DNA of 64,000 nt, taken from assembly GCF_002914585.1 (NCBI RefSeq), contig NZ_PDDM01000019.1, positions 1-64,000 on the forward strand, in the 5' to 3' direction. Both the position numbers and the translations under genes were made by a program. Source of the DNA: Pseudanabaena sp. BC1403. Its GTDB lineage: Bacteria; Cyanobacteriota; Cyanobacteriia; Pseudanabaenales; Pseudanabaenaceae. The first letter of the stretch is position 1; every line of letters begins with the position of its first letter. A model generated the notes under the pieces. The model was not told the origin of the DNA, made no database searches, and saw only the letters and a program-made list of their open reading frames with translations. Shown one piece after another: positions 28,091 through 59,745 of this stretch.

Positions 28091-28290
28091 GCGATCGTGT
28101 TTAAGAGATAGATTGTTCTTGCGATCGCCTAGAAATCACGACTCACAGTATTAGCGATCGCCTTTAGGAGATAGATTGTTGGTGCGATCGCCTAAAAATC
28201 ACGACTCATAGTAATAGCGATCGCCTTCAAGAAATGGATTGTTGATGCGATCACCTAGAAATCACAACTTACATTAATATCGATCGCAAT
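28091..28290 (+). repeat. Three tandem units of the 63-bp HIP1-spaced repeat, copy F
   Basis: Units begin at 28091, 28154 and 28217, exactly 63 bases apart, with a partial fourth core at 28280. Each holds GCGATCG cores 30 then 33 bases apart. The units are diverged copies, not recent identical duplicates. The remaining spacer to 28437 shows nothing else I recognise. Confidence 0.85.
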
Positions 28291-50512: not shown

Positions 50513-51010
50513 ATGAAAGCTAGGCTCTTAACCTCACTTGCTGCGATTTCCTTACTAAGCTTTGGCACGGCGATCGCACTAGTAATGCCAGAATCTCTTC
50601 AACAATCTCTATCCGAGGCGATCGCAGGTGAAGCTGCTTATGCCCAATCTGCTTCAGTCGGTGGACCTCTTGCCAAGAAATTGCATGGTAAGCCAGTGGT
50701 TGTTGATATTTATGCGAGTTGGTGTCCTGCTTGCCAAAATATTGCCCCCACCCTTTCTCAACTGAAAAGAGACTACGCTGGCAAAGTTCACTTTGTGGTG
50801 CTAGATGTATCTGATCGATCTTCTACTGCCAGATCTGAGGCGATCGCCAAAGAGTTAGGACTCAGCGCTTTCTTTGCTGCCAATAAGACTCAAACAGGTT
50901 CGTTAACTATCGTCGATCCATCCACAGGCAAAGTCTTGTCGCAACACCGCAATAATGCCAATAAAGCTACCTATACAAAGGTCTTAGATGCAGCTTTATC
51001 TAAAAAATAA
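50513..51010 (+). CDS. Exported thioredoxin-fold protein (WCPAC)
   Basis: This 165-residue protein has an N-terminal signal segment (LLTSLAAISLLSFGTAIALV) and a compact thioredoxin domain. The active site is YASWCPAC with Cys71 and Cys74, and the conserved cis-proline region appears as GSLTIVDPSTGKVLSQHRNN. It should act on thiols in the periplasm or thylakoid lumen. The following gene is a tandem paralogue with the same active site, and a CcdA-like transporter follows that, so these form a thiol-redox relay. Confidence 0.87.
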   Translation: MKARLLTSLAAISLLSFGTAIALVMPESLQQSLSEAIAGEAAYAQSASVGGPLAKKLHGKPVVVDIYASWCPACQNIAPTLSQLKRDYAGKVHFVVLDVSDRSSTARSEAIAKELGLSAFFAANKTQTGSLTIVDPSTGKVLSQHRNNANKATYTKVLDAALSKK

Positions 51011-51072
51011 GGCGATCGCCTATCCCAATCCCTTTGACCTTCAATTATCAATATTCGTCATCAAAAAATTCT

Positions 51073-51705
51073 ATGAAAATTAAGTATCTTGCTTCATTAG
51101 CAGCGATCGCGCTCTTGAGTACGGGTGTATTTATTGCTTGCGCTACACCTGAAGCATCCAAAGACAATGCTGCCACAACCACTACTGCAACTAAACCCGA
51201 TCCTTGTGCTGCGAAGAAAGCTGATCCTTGCGCTGCGAAGAAAGCCGATCCTTGCGCTGCAAAGAAAGCTGATCCTTGTGCTGCGAAGAAAGCTGATCCT
51301 TGCGCTGCGAAGAAAGCTGATCCTTGCGCTGCTAAATCTGCCTCTGGCGCTTCTATTGGCGGTCCTCTTGCTCAAAAGTTGCAGGGCAAGCCCGTTGTGG
51401 TTGATGTCTATGCAAGTTGGTGTCCTGCTTGCAAAAATATTGCCCCAACTGTTTCTGAACTGAAGAAAGAATACGATGGCAAAGTCGAATTTGTGGTACT
51501 AGATGTATCGGATAAAGCCACCACGGCGACGGCGGAAGCTACTGCTAAAGAGCTAGGACTAAGCCAGTTTTTGGCAGAGAACAAAACTCAAACTGGTTCG
51601 CTCACAATTGTTGATCCTGCTACGGGGAAGATTTTGGCTCAACATCGCAACAATGCCGACAAAATGGCTTACACCAAAGTTTTGGATGCCGCGCTGACAA
51701 AGTAA
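51073..51705 (+). CDS. Thioredoxin-fold lipoprotein with six DPCAAKKA repeats
   Basis: This 210-residue protein starts at ATG 51073. A lipobox (STGVFIAC) puts the lipid-anchored cysteine at residue 23. A Thr-rich linker leads to six 8-residue repeats, DPCAAKKA five times and DPCAAKSA once, giving six cysteines eight residues apart. The thioredoxin domain follows, with WCPAC (Cys117, Cys120) and the tail GSLTIVDPATGKILAQHRNN, close to the upstream paralogue. The regularly spaced Cys and Lys may bind a metal or form mixed disulfides with the domain. A hairpin terminator ends the gene. Confidence 0.88.
   Translation: MKIKYLASLAAIALLSTGVFIACATPEASKDNAATTTTATKPDPCAAKKADPCAAKKADPCAAKKADPCAAKKADPCAAKKADPCAAKSASGASIGGPLAQKLQGKPVVVDVYASWCPACKNIAPTVSELKKEYDGKVEFVVLDVSDKATTATAEATAKELGLSQFLAENKTQTGSLTIVDPATGKILAQHRNNADKMAYTKVLDAALTK
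51199..51342 (+). repeat. Six 24-base in-frame coding repeats
   Basis: Units of GATCCTTG(T/C)GCTGC(G/A)AAG and AAAGC(T/C) encode DPCAAKKA. Third-position differences show that they are not all recent copies. Slippage could change the copy number between strains. Confidence 0.92.
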
Positions 51706-51710
51706 TTCCA

Positions 51711-51747
51711 AAACATTCCATTTGTCTTAGACAAATGGAATGTTTTT
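51711..51747 (+). terminator. Hairpin terminator of the thioredoxin lipoprotein gene
   Basis: AAACATTCCATTTGTC pairs exactly with GACAAATGGAATGTTT around TTA, and a T-run follows. It lies between the lipoprotein and the CcdA-like gene, so part of the transcription may stop before the latter. Confidence 0.83.
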
Positions 51748-51771
51748 CATTTCTCATCTTAGGAAACTTAT

Positions 51772-52650
51772 ATGAATCATCTTCAGAAACCCGATCGCGA
51801 TACTGATGATCTGGTTATGCAAACTACTACAGGCAAGAAAACCAGTTCTAAAATCCCTAAAAAATGGTTTGTTTTTGGAGGATTAGCACTTCTAGGTTTT
51901 GCACTCGCTCTATTAATTATTGACCCAGTATCTAAAGGACTGGAATATGCCATATCTGTTGTGGAAAATCGCTATCAGGAATGGTTCGCGCAACAAGACA
52001 CAGCTAATCCAATGGTACTAATGCCTCTCGCATTTATTGGTGGCTTGATTGCCAGCATTTCCCCCTGCATTCTTGCCATGCTGCCCATAAATTTGAGCTA
52101 TATCGGCACTCGCAATATTACCTCTCGTAAAGATGCCTTGATCAAAGCAGGAATGTTTGTACTTGGCAATGTGATTATTCTTAGCCTATTTGGATTAGTT
52201 TCTTCCTTCGCAGGATTTGTAATCGTGGAATATCGCGGCCACATTAATGTGGTTGTTGGAGCGATTATTTTAATCATGGGATTCGGTTTATTGGGCTTGA
52301 TTAGGATTCCTTTACCTCAAATTAATGTTGGCGGATCTAATCTTGGTCCTTTTGGGGTTGGTTTAACCTATGCTTTGGTTAGTTCTCCCTGTGCTAGCCC
52401 TGTACTGTTTGCAGTGCTTGCAGCTTCGGCGGCAAGTGGTTCGCAAGTTCTATCGGTGCTGACTATGGTAAGTTATGCGTTGGGCTACACGATTGTGATC
52501 TTCTTATCTAGTCTGCTGACTGGCTTCGCTAAACAAGCCAAACTGCTGCTGAAATACTCAGAAGGAATTACCAGATTCGGCAGTATTGCGCTGATTTTGG
52601 CAGGAATTTACTATCTATTTATAGGTATAAAGTGGTTTATTGGCGGTTAA
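51772..52650 (+). CDS. CcdA/DsbD-like thiol-electron transporter
   Basis: This 292-residue protein has about seven hydrophobic segments. It contains two cysteine motifs in the CcdA pattern, ISPCILAMLPINLSYIG in the first core helix and SSPCASPVLFAVLAASA in the fourth. These pass electrons from cytoplasmic thioredoxin across the membrane. An extra N-terminal helix (about 25-45) and a Gln/Trp-rich loop precede the core. Cyanobacteria use CcdA for cytochrome c maturation, but here the partner is more likely the adjacent exported thioredoxins. AGGAAA lies before the ATG. Confidence 0.87.
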   Translation: MNHLQKPDRDTDDLVMQTTTGKKTSSKIPKKWFVFGGLALLGFALALLIIDPVSKGLEYAISVVENRYQEWFAQQDTANPMVLMPLAFIGGLIASISPCILAMLPINLSYIGTRNITSRKDALIKAGMFVLGNVIILSLFGLVSSFAGFVIVEYRGHINVVVGAIILIMGFGLLGLIRIPLPQINVGGSNLGPFGVGLTYALVSSPCASPVLFAVLAASAASGSQVLSVLTMVSYALGYTIVIFLSSLLTGFAKQAKLLLKYSEGITRFGSIALILAGIYYLFIGIKWFIGG

Positions 52651-52998
52651 GTTCTATTGGTAGTAAATTAAGAATTTTGGGGATAGATATGTATGGTAGA
52701 ACAACTGGTAATTATTGATTCAGGTCACGTAGATTATACTGTGACAATCCATGCAAGAGATTCATCATCTAAGTTCTACATAACGTCAGAAATTGTAGCT
52801 GCTGTCGATTGTGATAGTGTAAAAGCAAAACCCAAGAATAGAATGGCGGCGCGAAGCGCCGCCATTCTATTCTTGGGTTTTATGTCCTCACTTTTGGAAA
52901 TTAAAAAAACGAACCCAATAAGGTTTTTAAAATCACAAAATGGTATAGCCAATTTGTGATTTGGTATAACATCAAAATCGCCGAAAATCGCTAAAGTA
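52651..52998. other. Intergenic spacer with palindromic element
   Basis: It carries the perfect hairpin at 52827-52881 and an open frame (52693-52959) that I regard as spurious because it runs through that hairpin and matches no family I know. No other signal is seen. Confidence 0.55.
52827..52881. repeat. Perfect 26-bp hairpin of the AAAACCCAA family
   Basis: Bases 52827-52852 pair exactly with 52856-52881 around GAA. Its ends AAAACCCAAGAAT and its centre GGCGGCGC-GAA-GCGCCGCC are shared with the hairpin at 59642-59698. Confidence 0.88.
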
Positions 52999-53631
52999 AT
53001 GTCAATTCTAGAGACAAATCAAGACTGGTTAGTTAATGATGAGAGCCAATGTCTTCCCCTTAAAACTGAGAAAAATGATTTGCAAGAAGATTCATTTACA
53101 CCGCCCTATCGACTCTATCGATTCCTCACAGATATTGAAGATATCATCTGGCAAGAAAAAGATGACCGTTTGCGATTACAAAAAATTTGTCCATTAGTTC
53201 GTCGATTATTAAATAGTTCAGAATGGATATTAACTAGTTTTTTGCTTCCCGATCGCGAAACAGGTTGGTCAGTCCAAATGCTCTATGATGAGCCAGATTT
53301 TGCGCTAACGGTGCAGACCGTCGCTTGGTCGCCGCAGCGTACTTCGTCAATTCATAATCATGCAACTTGGGGAATTGTGGCGTTGATTGATGGTGCAGAG
53401 AAAAATACCTTTTGGCAGCGATCGCCTACTCCAGACTTTCCAGATCGCATTGTCAAAACAGGCGAACATATACTTATGACAGGTGATATTCTCTGTTTAA
53501 TGCCCAATGCAATTCACCAAATTGAAGTGATTGGTGATGAACCCACAATTAGTTTGAATATCTACGGTATAACTGACTATAGTAAACGTTTTGAGTTTGA
53601 TGTAGAGCGGCGCACCGCTAGAGTTTTTTAA
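52999..53631 (+). CDS. Cysteine dioxygenase-like cupin
   Basis: This 210-residue cytoplasmic cupin resembles bacterial cysteine dioxygenases, which oxidise cysteine to cysteine sulfinate with an iron held by three histidines. The first motif is SSIHNHATWGIVALIDGAEKN (two of the histidines) and the second is MPNAIHQIEVIGDEPTISLNIYG. The N-terminal part (LTDIEDIIWQEKDDRLRL) fits the same family. The true substrate may be a different thiol. It lies just after a thiol-redox gene set and 47 bases before a sensor kinase gene. Confidence 0.72.
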   Translation: MSILETNQDWLVNDESQCLPLKTEKNDLQEDSFTPPYRLYRFLTDIEDIIWQEKDDRLRLQKICPLVRRLLNSSEWILTSFLLPDRETGWSVQMLYDEPDFALTVQTVAWSPQRTSSIHNHATWGIVALIDGAEKNTFWQRSPTPDFPDRIVKTGEHILMTGDILCLMPNAIHQIEVIGDEPTISLNIYGITDYSKRFEFDVERRTARVF

Positions 53632-53678: not shown

Positions 53679-55124
53679 ATGTCAATGCATAAATCAATCA
53701 GAACAGCGATTTCTAATCTACTTGGTAAGCGAGTTTCTACCACCTCACTTCAGTTTCGTTTGACCGTAGAACTGATTGCACTGTCCGTCATTAGCTTAAT
53801 GGGGGTATCTGCTTGGGCAGGTTGGAGCATGGAACAGACTGTAGTTAATGGTCATAAGCAAATGCTGGAGTACATTGCGATGCGTTTCCCCGATCTAGTG
53901 GAAATGTATATGGAAACGGGCGGAATTAACGCAGGAATAGAACGCACATCTAGCAAGGTCTCGACTTCAGATTTATCGGTTTTGGTTAAGAGTGCTGATG
54001 GACGAATTCTTGCTAAATCTGCGAATAATCATGACCTATCGGCAGACTTGACAAATATTGGTTATAACGAAGTACCAACTACACCAAAGGTAGTCCAAAT
54101 AGGCGATCGCTATGCAGTCATGTGTGGTAGCGCTCTTATCGTAGATGGAAATATAGTTGGAAAAGTCTATCTCTCGCAAGATATCACCAATGAACAACGT
54201 CAACTAAATAATGGCATTTATGGATTAGCGATCGTCAGCACCATAGCAACTGGGGTTTTGATCTTAGCGATCGCTCTGCGAATTCGCAAAGCCCTTGTCC
54301 CTTTACAGCAAATGAGTCAAATGGCAAGTGTAATTTCTATTGACGACTTAGGTGGGGCGAAACTGCAACTAGCTAAGGCTCCTGATGAGATTTTGGGATT
54401 AGCACAGGCATTTAATGAAATGCTGCATCGGCTGTCAGGTTCTTGGGAGCAGCAGCATCAATTTGTCGGCAATGTATCCCATGAATTACGAACTCCCTTA
54501 ACCGTTATCTGTGGTTATTTGCAGAGCTTATTACGGAGAGGTGACAATCTCAGCGTTTATCAAAAACAAGCCCTCGAAACCGCCAGCGCTGAGACTGAGC
54601 GTACAATCCAAATGCTCCAAGATTTGTTAGACCTCGCAAGGGCGGACAGTGGTAATTTACAGTTTCGTCAAGATCCCGTCTTTCTAAATACTTTAGCTGC
54701 GGAAGTTGCAGGCATGAGTGAGAAAGTCAGCGATCGCTCGGTAAAATTATTATCAACCGATCAAGATATAGTTGCTCTGGCTGACCAAGATCGGCTGCAA
54801 CAAGTGTTAATTAACTTAGTTGATAATGCGATTAAATATTCTACTGATCCTGTGGAAATTCAATTAGCAACTAAAGATGAGCAAGCGATAATTCATGTTT
54901 GCGATCGCGGTATTGGTATTTCTCTAGCCCATCAACATCGTATCTTTGAGCGTTTTTATCGCAGTGATGATCCTTCCACACGCTCCAGAGATGGCACGGG
55001 ACTGGGACTAGCGATCGCAAAAAGCCTAGTAGAAGGAATGGATGGAAGAATAACTGTGCTCTCCAAACCCAATGAAGGTAGTATTTTTACAATTACTTTA
55101 CCGATATGGAATCCACAACGATGA
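53679..55124 (+). CDS. Sensor histidine kinase with HAMP domain
   Basis: This 481-residue membrane kinase has two helices bracketing a periplasmic domain (about residues 45-180). A HAMP segment follows (ALRIRKALVPLQQMSQMASVI), then a HisKA domain with the phosphorylated His268 in FVGNVSHELRTPLT and a HATPase domain (LINLVDNAIKYS, DRGIGI and GTGLGLAIAKSLVEGM). It should phosphorylate the OmpR-type regulator encoded next, with which it overlaps by 4 bases. The stimulus is unknown; the thiol and cupin genes upstream hint at redox or sulfur signals. Confidence 0.92.
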   Translation: MSMHKSIRTAISNLLGKRVSTTSLQFRLTVELIALSVISLMGVSAWAGWSMEQTVVNGHKQMLEYIAMRFPDLVEMYMETGGINAGIERTSSKVSTSDLSVLVKSADGRILAKSANNHDLSADLTNIGYNEVPTTPKVVQIGDRYAVMCGSALIVDGNIVGKVYLSQDITNEQRQLNNGIYGLAIVSTIATGVLILAIALRIRKALVPLQQMSQMASVISIDDLGGAKLQLAKAPDEILGLAQAFNEMLHRLSGSWEQQHQFVGNVSHELRTPLTVICGYLQSLLRRGDNLSVYQKQALETASAETERTIQMLQDLLDLARADSGNLQFRQDPVFLNTLAAEVAGMSEKVSDRSVKLLSTDQDIVALADQDRLQQVLINLVDNAIKYSTDPVEIQLATKDEQAIIHVCDRGIGISLAHQHRIFERFYRSDDPSTRSRDGTGLGLAIAKSLVEGMDGRITVLSKPNEGSIFTITLPIWNPQR

Positions 55125-55801
55125 ATAATCGCATTCTTCTAGTTGAAGACGATCCCAAATTATCTAAGTTTATCGAATCAGAACTTAGTTTAGAAGGCTA
55201 TGAAGTTACTGTGGCATTCAATGGTTTAGATGGATTAACTATAGCCCGTGACGATCAGCCTGATCTAGTGATTTTGGATTGGATGCTGCCCGAAATATCA
55301 GGACTAGATGTTTGTACAAGGTTACGCAAAACGGGAGTGCAAGTACCAATTATTATGCTGACCGCAAAAGATGAAATAAGCGATCGGGTGACGGGGTTGA
55401 ACTCAGGAGCTGATGATTATCTCACCAAGCCTTTTAGTATTGAGGAGTTACTAGCCAGAGTTAAAGCCAGAATGCGGCGGATGTATCCCGAAATTTCTGA
55501 CAACTTACAATTTGAAGATATCACTTTAAATCGCCTATCCCATGAGGTGTATCGGGCTGGACAGAAAATAGTTCTTACGGCAAAAGAGTTTGATCTATTG
55601 GAATTTATGTTGCGACATCCCCAACAAGTACTATCCCGTGACCAAATTCTCGAAGCTGTATGGGGTTATGACTTTATGGGTGAGTCTAATATCATCGAAG
55701 TCTACATACGGGCGCTGCGAATTAAATTAGAAGACAATAACTCTAAACGCATACTGCACACTGTACGTGGAGTTGGTTATGTATTACGAAATAATGCCTA
55801 A
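55121..55801 (+). CDS. OmpR/PhoB-family response regulator
   Basis: This 226-residue protein has a receiver domain (RILLVEDDPKLSKFIESEL, phosphorylated Asp53 in DLVILDWMLPE, and Lys in DDYLTKPFS) and a C-terminal winged helix (LTAKEFDLLEFMLRHP, AVWGYDFMGESNIIEVYIRA and LHTVRGVGYVLR). It is the partner of the upstream kinase. ATG 55121 overlaps the kinase stop as ATGA and fits the receiver start; 55106 would add five residues. A hairpin terminator follows directly. Confidence 0.92.
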   Translation: MNNRILLVEDDPKLSKFIESELSLEGYEVTVAFNGLDGLTIARDDQPDLVILDWMLPEISGLDVCTRLRKTGVQVPIIMLTAKDEISDRVTGLNSGADDYLTKPFSIEELLARVKARMRRMYPEISDNLQFEDITLNRLSHEVYRAGQKIVLTAKEFDLLEFMLRHPQQVLSRDQILEAVWGYDFMGESNIIEVYIRALRIKLEDNNSKRILHTVRGVGYVLRNNA

Positions 55802-59369: not shown

Positions 59370-59745
59370 GAGAGATAAATAATTATGGAGTTTGAGGAAT
59401 AGTGCAAAATAGTTTACCGCAATGTCTAGAGCTTATCATAGGCTGCATGAAGCTATACTCACGGCACTTTACGCCCAAACCAGAACCAATAAAATTTTAA
59501 AAGTGGTGATTTGCACGACTTTTAAAATTTTATTGTGGTTCGTTTGATTGAAAATAACTCATCGGAGAATATGCGATTTTTATAGCGATCGCCAAGCATA
59601 TTAGTCCAAAACACAAAGTGGCGCAGCCATTTTGTGTTTTTAAAACCCAAGAATACGATTGGCGGCGCGAAGCGCCGCCAATCGTATTCTTGGGTTTTGA
59701 TTTGTAATACAAATGGCGACAGCTATACAAGTCTTTGAATGGTGA
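59370..59745. repeat. Spacer filled by three palindromes
   Basis: Hairpins lie at 59482-59540 (ACCAATAAAATTTTAAAAGT with a near-exact partner), 59608-59640 (AAAACACAAA...TTTGTGTTTT) and 59642-59698 (27-bp perfect stem of the AAAACCCAA family, GAA loop). No gene is supported here; the small leftward frame at 59530-59730 is an artefact of the palindromes. Confidence 0.8.

Follow-up and report, generated by a model that had tools for sequence, protein, structure and literature searches.

A recurrent [ND]PC[AGS] cysteine array linked to thioredoxin, CcdA and cupin genes in Pseudanabaena and other cyanobacteria

Introduction

CcdA-type electron transporters associated with an exported thioredoxin, such as CcsX/HCF164 or TlpA/ResA, are the described systems closest to the gene set analysed here, which lies in a stretch of 64,000 nucleotides from Pseudanabaena sp. 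BC1403 (contig NZ_PDDM01000019.1, positions 1 to 64,000; the whole stretch is hereafter called the window). Between positions 50513 and 55801, the window carries genes encoding two exported thioredoxin-like proteins, a CcdA-like transporter, a cupin, a sensor histidine kinase and a response regulator, which probably form one functional neighbourhood. This gene set shares with the CcdA-CcsX/HCF164 and TlpA/ResA systems a two-cysteine CcdA, an exported and probably tethered thioredoxin, and a presumed supply of electrons from cytosolic thioredoxin. It differs from them by the poly-cysteine tail of the second thioredoxin, by the association with a putative thiol dioxygenase and a two-component system, by a patchy spread, and by the presence of its own trxB and trx genes in some loci. 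Review passages on lumenal thiols centre on the maturation of cytochrome c and on how disulfides are formed (PMC3842002).

Two other groups of described proteins resemble the repeat or its partners. The precursors of the HvfA/EGKCG oxazolins and of bufferins are also exported, contain short cysteine motifs repeated in variable number and may have a DoxX neighbour, as is the case for one array of our set (locus L070). However, the present locus has no MNIO gene (nor have 32 of the 34 genomes with repeats), its motif is [ND]PC[AGS] and not EGKCG, related arrays are fused to thioredoxin or YHS domains, and a thiol dioxygenase-like gene is found nearby. Metal-binding, copper-sensing YHS domains use an Asp and three Cys ligands (PMC4626032). 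The YHS/TRASH proteins share a YHS Pfam match with some of our array fusions, but the latter lack the three Cys ligands.

A cysteine array found alone or fused to thioredoxin and YHS domains

The second thioredoxin, a probable lipoprotein judging from its N-terminal sequence, is encoded at 51073..51705 on the forward strand (210 residues; PF00085, 7.9e-13; alignment A1). Its start was set at the family-aligned ATG at 51073, the mechanical list of open reading frames (ORFs) beginning at a TTG at 51034. The closest named relative belongs to a Pseudanabaena locus (96% identity). A candidate lipid-attachment cysteine read from the sequence, C23 (VFIAC, 51139..51141, +), follows a hydrophobic stretch and is retained in most, not all, relatives; the classic lipobox consensus being L-x-x-C, the Phe found at position -3 of F-I-A-C23 is atypical. 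Six units of the DPCAAKKA type, the last one reading DPCAAKSA, then occupy 51199..51336 (+) with a period of 24 bp. Tandem Repeats Finder (TRF) delimits this array at 51199-51332 (period 24, 5.6 copies, 93% matches, score 240), in agreement with the six units announced in an earlier note on this DNA, and gives four rows for the whole 64 kb, two of which describe one other array. The WCPAC redox motif is encoded at 51418..51432 (+); its residues W116, C117, P118, A119 and C120 are invariant in the 16 rows of A1, while relatives beyond this alignment show WCSAC, WCSKC, WCAGC, WCAAC or WCPGC. In an AlphaFold2 (AF2) model built from 16 aligned rows (mean predicted local distance difference test, pLDDT, 63.7; predicted template modelling score 0.50), residues 1-95 have a pLDDT below 50 and an ordered helix/strand domain starts after residue 97. 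The repeat region is thus predicted to be disordered.

Among the loci that we fetched, 61 distinct cyanobacterial ORFs contain an array of at least two [ND]PC[AGS] units. Based on simple sequence marks, 41 of these arrays are fused to a thioredoxin, 7 to a YHS domain and 13 stand alone. These 61 ORFs and their 323 units do not include a truncated duplicate of a YHS fusion (L037); two of the 13 stand-alone ORFs are fragments of a single frame-broken gene (L121), and a third is cut at a contig end (L095). The YHS domain (PF04945) scores above its cut-off in five of the six fusions tested. In one genome (G351, locus L102), a YHS-array fusion and a thioredoxin-array fusion lie on either side of the same ccdA gene. 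The distance between successive cysteines (n = 262 steps) is 5, 6, 7 or 8 residues in 25, 86, 102 and 31 cases, respectively, i.e. in 244 steps out of 262. Cys is present in all 323 [ND]Px[AGS] units inside arrays, an identity unable to show the absence of decay because the search motif itself contains Cys, and no array Cys lies outside the motif. These cysteines are encoded by TGT (216) or TGC (107), with synonymous differences in 385 of the 977 pairs compared within arrays. The identity of the cysteines is therefore not only the result of recent copying.

The number of units varies among Pseudanabaena sequences, one plasmid included: six in the window and L001, five in L002, two in L003, L005 and L007, and seven in L061. 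Repeats are thus present in close homologues, the complete second thioredoxins read from this genus having between 2 and 7 units. Two features given to the repeat in the earlier note have to be amended. Its restriction to the second thioredoxin is true of the window, but in L011, L013, L014 and L015 the first copy also bears an array. Paired lysines do not characterise the repeat, since the pairs most often following [ND]PC[AGS] in the 323 units are AK (89), GK (79) and SK (75) and some arrays contain no lysine at all (DPCAG, L047). A search for the array motif strings and for the joint mention of Pseudanabaena, thioredoxin and CcdA gave no match in the literature covered, most subscription journals being outside it. 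We regard the gene set as a variation on known thiol-relay systems, with an unassigned poly-thiol module.

The probable thiol relay associated with the array

The first thioredoxin-like protein is encoded immediately upstream, at 50513..51010 on the forward strand (165 residues; PF00085, 2.5e-12; alignment A1). Its WCPAC codons are at 50720-50734 and it has neither repeat nor lipobox; its N-terminus, judged by eye, suggests that it is exported. With 47.1 and 48.8 bits for a cut-off of 23.5, and a CxxC motif in each, both proteins belong to the PF00085 family. Downstream, at 51772..52650 (+), lies the gene of a 292-residue CcdA/DsbD-type electron transporter (PF02683, 4.6e-12; 46.1 bits for a cut-off of 27.1). 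Its two membrane-domain cysteines, C99 and C207, one per half, are kept in 31 out of 31 distinct aligned relatives. ORFs, PF00085 and PF02683 thus agree with the tandem of exported WCPAC thioredoxins next to a CcdA-like transporter that had been noticed from the sequence. At other sites, the genome encodes two weaker CcdA paralogues (33% and 29% identity).

In 20 of 21 cyanobacterial loci, a set that leaves out the distant match L022, ccdA is located downstream of the thioredoxin genes; in the remaining locus, L006, the contig ends at the match. Among 23 distinct thioredoxin-type loci (25 scanned, minus the repeats L115 and L118), whose flanks differ in length, a trxB gene was found nearby in 8 and a cytosolic-type thioredoxin gene in 12. 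Because many relatives have trxB and a thioredoxin gene within one run of genes, the case for a TrxB-Trx-CcdA-Trx relay is strong and such a relay seems highly probable, which extends the thiol relay first proposed for this locus. It is also likely, although less so, that the array is a client or cargo of this relay, because thioredoxin fusion and ccdA linkage are common, even though stand-alone arrays live without a ccdA nearby; the relay is therefore not obligatory. For the same arrays, no fused thioredoxin is needed, so serving as a substrate of its own thioredoxin domain, as had been suggested, cannot be the whole function of the repeat. The sequence does not discriminate between the three roles considered at the outset (metal binding, disulfide reservoir, substrate of the thioredoxin domain).

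In Pseudanabaena galeata, the plasmid pPg_02 (NZ_CP112876.1, locus L061) carries a run of thioredoxin, thioredoxin-array, ccdA, trxB-like and thioredoxin genes. Tn3, ISKra4 and IS630 transposases are found close to this run. Given this plasmid location near transposases, the gene set may be mobile.

The cupin and its relatives

The cupin gene (52999..53631, +) encodes a protein with no Pfam or NCBIfam match at 0.01. Its profile (A3, 13 rows) matches the 3-mercaptopropionate dioxygenase of PDB 3uss at 1.3e-14 and mercaptosuccinate dioxygenase at 2e-14. The AF2 model (pLDDT 88.1) was matched by Foldseek to 4tlf with an E value of 2.8e-13, TM scores of 0.71/0.76 and about 21% identity. Three residues of an HNH...H pattern, H119, H121 and H173, are invariant in the 13 rows of A3 and are the putative ligands of a three-His iron site. 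On the basis of its profile similarity to cysteine and 3-mercaptopropionate dioxygenases and of its predicted cupin fold, we assign the protein to the thiol dioxygenase kind. It shares with the known 3-mercaptopropionate, mercaptosuccinate and cysteine dioxygenases the cupin profile, the HxH...H motif and the predicted fold, but it is distinguished from them by its linkage to cysteine arrays, its lack of a family match and its low identity in the fold comparison.

In a tree of 47 cupins, many of whose rows were picked because they bear an array, one branch of 11 rows (starred), including the second cupin of this genome, contains no row beside an array. Among the 36 other rows, 31 are near an array, the exceptions being L132, L134, L136, L137 and L138; at L134, an open stretch contains an array-like segment of 20 residues. 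The tree does not include fragmented or truncated cupins (L007, L017, L019, L121), nor the cupin of L135, which was lost to the first-Met rule. The second cupin of this genome (G000:C14:112720-113334, L133) adjoins ferredoxin-like genes, as does its relative L125 in another cyanobacterium. Such a setting occurs in nif regions.

Gene neighbourhood and distribution

A cupin of the window type was found in the available flanks of 15 of the 21 cyanobacterial loci (as two pieces in L017), and in all six loci without it a contig end truncates one or both flanks. The kinase was found in 11 of the 21, several flanks being cut short. Frequently, regulator, kinase and cupin genes follow one another on one strand, divergent from the thioredoxin-thioredoxin-ccdA genes; the window, L001 and L005 differ in having the cupin and kinase genes downstream of, and on the same strand as, the thioredoxins.

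We then compared 30 genomes belonging to the best band of the thioredoxin family (E up to about 1e-55), whose sequences were read, nine weaker ones being dropped. A cupin lies within 12 kb of the thioredoxin locus in 18 of the 23 genomes with repeats (G042 having a two-piece cupin) vs. none of the seven without repeats (G049, G073, G077, G090, G230, G238 and G267), a contrast that does not represent independent events because the genomes are related to each other. G238 has its cupin next to a YHS-borne array and not next to the array-less thioredoxin. A cupin is also present within 12 kb in 9 of 13 places with stand-alone or YHS-type arrays, and kinase and regulator genes occur at several such places (L067-L071, L103, L107-L109). 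On Picosynechococcus plasmids, a stand-alone array is divergent from genes for the regulator (65-66% identity), kinase (55%) and cupin (54-57%); downstream of this array come genes encoding a 131-residue protein (with a MauE match below cut-off only) and a VTT-domain (TVP38) protein. In Leptolyngbya, a DoxX protein and a cupin follow the stand-alone array. At L070, DoxX is matched at 7.3e-14 and the HvfX family at 30.6 bits for a cut-off of 80.

At the scale of the phylum, profile A1 detects 39 of 386 genomes at E up to 1e-25, profile A2 detects 42 at 1e-4, weak false matches included, and the cupin profile A3 detects 84. Weak A2 matches (e.g. G061, G065, G122, G164, G326 and G379) were not counted, a decision based on the sequence where a locus is given and otherwise on the score. 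At least two real arrays (L124 and L135) escaped A2, so that the array counts are lower bounds. In a hand tally, all 34 genomes with repeats have a cupin vs. 50 of the 352 others, a co-occurrence inflated by the 11-row cupin branch that adjoins no array. Among the 24 best-scoring A3 cupins, 22 have an array within 12 kb (in the exceptions, G281 and G279, the cupin is on another contig), but this count leans towards linkage as A3 was built from array-linked cupins. Named loci and genomes overlap in organism (L009/G279, L010/G190, L011/G293 and L016/G130, L010 being Pseudanabaena sp. lw0831), and the two sets of counts are therefore not independent. Of 15 records matched in a plasmid search, the 6 with E up to 5e-4 all come from cyanobacteria, whereas the best of the others is at 3e-2; no viral contig matched the one strict repeat DNA pattern used.

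A metagenome-assembled genome labelled Candidatus Gracilibacteria SU_1_2 (L020) contains a thioredoxin-array protein near-identical to that of Hydrococcus rivularis (L021), so its contig is probably misbinned cyanobacterial DNA. On pAQ7 of Picosynechococcus sp. PCC 7002 (NC_010474), the stand-alone array ORF (L067:8887-9192, +) is absent from the PLSDB gene table, which is known to be incomplete. The opposite-strand ORF SYNPCC7002_RS16885 (WP_156785491.1) is annotated instead, probably in error, and the same annotation situation is observed in PCC 73109 and PCC 7117. The plasmid region of this array also contains the ergothioneine genes egtB and egtD (L067:1445-3753, -), i.e. another thiol function nearby. 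A candidate mercuric reductase beside the stand-alone array of L071 was rejected, its TIGR02053 score being 384.4 for a cut-off of 454.45. Mercuric reductases are marked by a C-terminal cysteine pair; this protein has a CxxxxC motif and no adjacent Cys pair in its last 20 residues, and is a disulfide-reductase-like flavoprotein. The flavoprotein of L070 has no CxxxxC.

The two-component system

The sensor histidine kinase (53679..55124, +; HisKA, HATPase_c) and the OmpR-type response regulator (55106..55801, +; Response_reg, Trans_reg_C) are encoded downstream of the cupin. The kinase residue C149 (codon 54123-54125) is found in 22 of 22 distinct kinases, down to 33% identity, and forms the only Cys column conserved throughout. 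It lies between two apparent membrane segments and, with the topology judged by eye, is probably extracytoplasmic. A cysteine in this position is compatible with the sensing of thiols or of a soft metal. The best NCBIfam family for the kinase is the heavy-metal kinase family TIGR01386, with 225.6 bits for a cut-off of 292.55, which leaves it outside the CzcS/SilS/CopS family. For the regulator, CzcR/SilR/CopR is among the best families, and no NCBIfam family reaches its cut-off among the 25 matches listed. The pair therefore differs from the heavy-metal two-component systems by scores below the curated cut-offs and by the single invariant Cys of the sensor region.

Proposed mechanism and alternative explanations

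From the genes, the recurrence of the motif, the architectures, the neighbourhood, the kinship of the cupin and the kinase cysteine, all directly observed, we propose a regulated envelope thiol system in which an exported poly-thiol sink would be reduced by the relay and placed under thiol-sensing control. We give this proposal even credence. Electron flow, the reduced state of the tail, its ligand and its regulation would be as follows. NADPH-thioredoxin reductase and cytosolic thioredoxin would bring electrons to CcdA, which, by the established logic of this pathway and as the genes suggest here, would hand them over to the exported thioredoxin domains on the other side of the membrane. In the second thioredoxin, the domain is tethered to a tail that is predicted to be unfolded and has cysteines eight residues apart; kept reduced by the relay, this tail would act as a multivalent thiol sink in the periplasm or lumen. 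It could bind Cu(I) or other soft metal ions, or take up oxidants and mixed disulfides; the two options are nearly even, metal binding being slightly more likely. The multivalent thiols, the DoxX protein beside L070, as in the copper-peptide clusters described in PMC12452194, and the heavy-metal-like kinase are points for a metal, while the missing YHS ligands, the kinase score under the cut-off and the lack of an identified metal pump are points against it. Other cyanobacteria would produce the same sink either as a small protein of its own or attached to a YHS domain. The two-component system, with its one invariant and probably extracytoplasmic cysteine, probably senses the state of thiols or metals and controls the gene set, and the thiol dioxygenase would dispose of, or report, small thiols.

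Several observations weigh against this proposal. In the window, no trxB or cytosolic-type trx gene lies between ccdA and the cupin, TrxB homologues being encoded elsewhere in this genome, and stand-alone arrays are found without ccdA nearby. No cupin occurs within 12 kb in 4 of the 13 stand-alone or YHS-type places, some of them at contig ends, and the array of L104, L106 and L111, loci of 18-19 kb each, is flanked by none of the partner genes looked for. Beside the loci, whose neighbours were screened for chosen genes only, we found neither a metal transporter nor a metal ATPase or copper oxidase. The identity of the array cysteines is partly built into the motif used for finding the arrays, and NPF, NPY or NPG units occur at array edges or as single copies (L035, L008, L039, L050). 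The disorder prediction is based on 16 rows. The YHS domains fused to arrays carry one Cys each (7 of 7), and the three metal-binding Cys ligands of the domains described in PMC4626032 are missing from them, as judged by eye; the YHS fusion was therefore dropped as a direct proof of copper binding. Finally, the invariance of C149 is observed among related kinases only, in which H59, D168 and several other residues are invariant too, and both kinase and regulator fall short of the heavy-metal family cut-offs.

Among the rival explanations, a purely redox role, the array being a disulfide/thiol reservoir or a flexible electron wire to distant substrates with no part for metals, is possible, although we lean against it. 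The neighbours that can be named act on thiols (CcdA, thioredoxins, TrxB, thiol dioxygenase, kinase with an invariant Cys) and no metal transporter was identified, but stand-alone arrays lack an adjacent thioredoxin or ccdA, and a spacing of 5-8 residues with a Pro before each Cys does not resemble the CxxC pairs of known relays. It is quite improbable that the array is a passive low-complexity spacer, linking a lipid anchor to the thioredoxin and grown by replication slippage. Such a spacer would fit the 2 to 7 copies across Pseudanabaena sequences, the predicted disorder, the 244 of 262 steps that span 5-8 residues and the existence of family thioredoxins without an array; against it, Cys is kept throughout with synonymous variation, arrays also form separate proteins or are borne by another type of domain, frequently with the same genes around them, and cupin linkage tracks the array (18/23 vs. 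0/7).

Two further explanations link the locus to described pathways. That the arrays are metallophore precursors modified by an MNIO enzyme (DUF692), like HvfA/EGKCG oxazolins or bufferins, is very improbable. The broad layout is shared, with an exported Cys-repeat protein next to a DoxX protein at L070, and according to PMC12452194 EGKCG precursors also vary in repeat number and have DoxX neighbours. However, PF05114 was found in only 2 of the 34 genomes with repeats (G042 and G116; 386 genomes searched, matched by hand) and has no match in this genome, compared with 2 of 14 control genomes, a diverged enzyme being able to escape the model. MNIO modification is thus unlikely in general. We would be equally surprised if the locus simply served cytochrome c maturation through an ordinary CcdA/CcsX (HCF164-like) pair, with an incidental tail. 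A CcdA and a membrane-tethered lumenal thioredoxin do constitute the known cytochrome c pathway of plastids (PMC3842002). Against this explanation, the family is patchy (39 of 386 genomes), the genome has two other CcdA paralogues, the locus is linked to a cupin and a two-component system, and one copy lies on a plasmid near transposases. Cytochrome c maturation itself is general in cyanobacteria.

With this proposal, what was an odd repeat becomes part of a defined and testable gene set that recurs in cyanobacteria, including the laboratory strain Picosynechococcus sp. PCC 7002. If true, a renewable exported thiol sink controlled by thiol sensing would be a route to metal or oxidant tolerance distinct from MNIO-made metallophores. 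A bolder version, which we hold to be rather doubtful, is a previously undescribed cyanobacterial envelope defence built on a mobile and interchangeable NPCA poly-thiol module (free, thioredoxin- or YHS-borne). This module would act as an unmodified exported chelator or sink recharged by a dedicated NADPH-to-lumen thiol relay, with a histidine kinase that reads the state of thiols or metals by means of its extracytoplasmic cysteine as the switch and the thiol dioxygenase closing the circuit.

Additional features of the window

Two identical GC-rich palindromes, GGCGGCGCGAAGCGCCGCC, are located at 52845-52863 and 59661-59679 (chance expectation 0.00). The first one sits inside a longer hairpin-like stretch that separates ccdA from the cupin gene. 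Moreover, TRF identified at 28091-28287 a 63-bp tandem repeat of 3.1 copies, which includes GCGATCGC sites.

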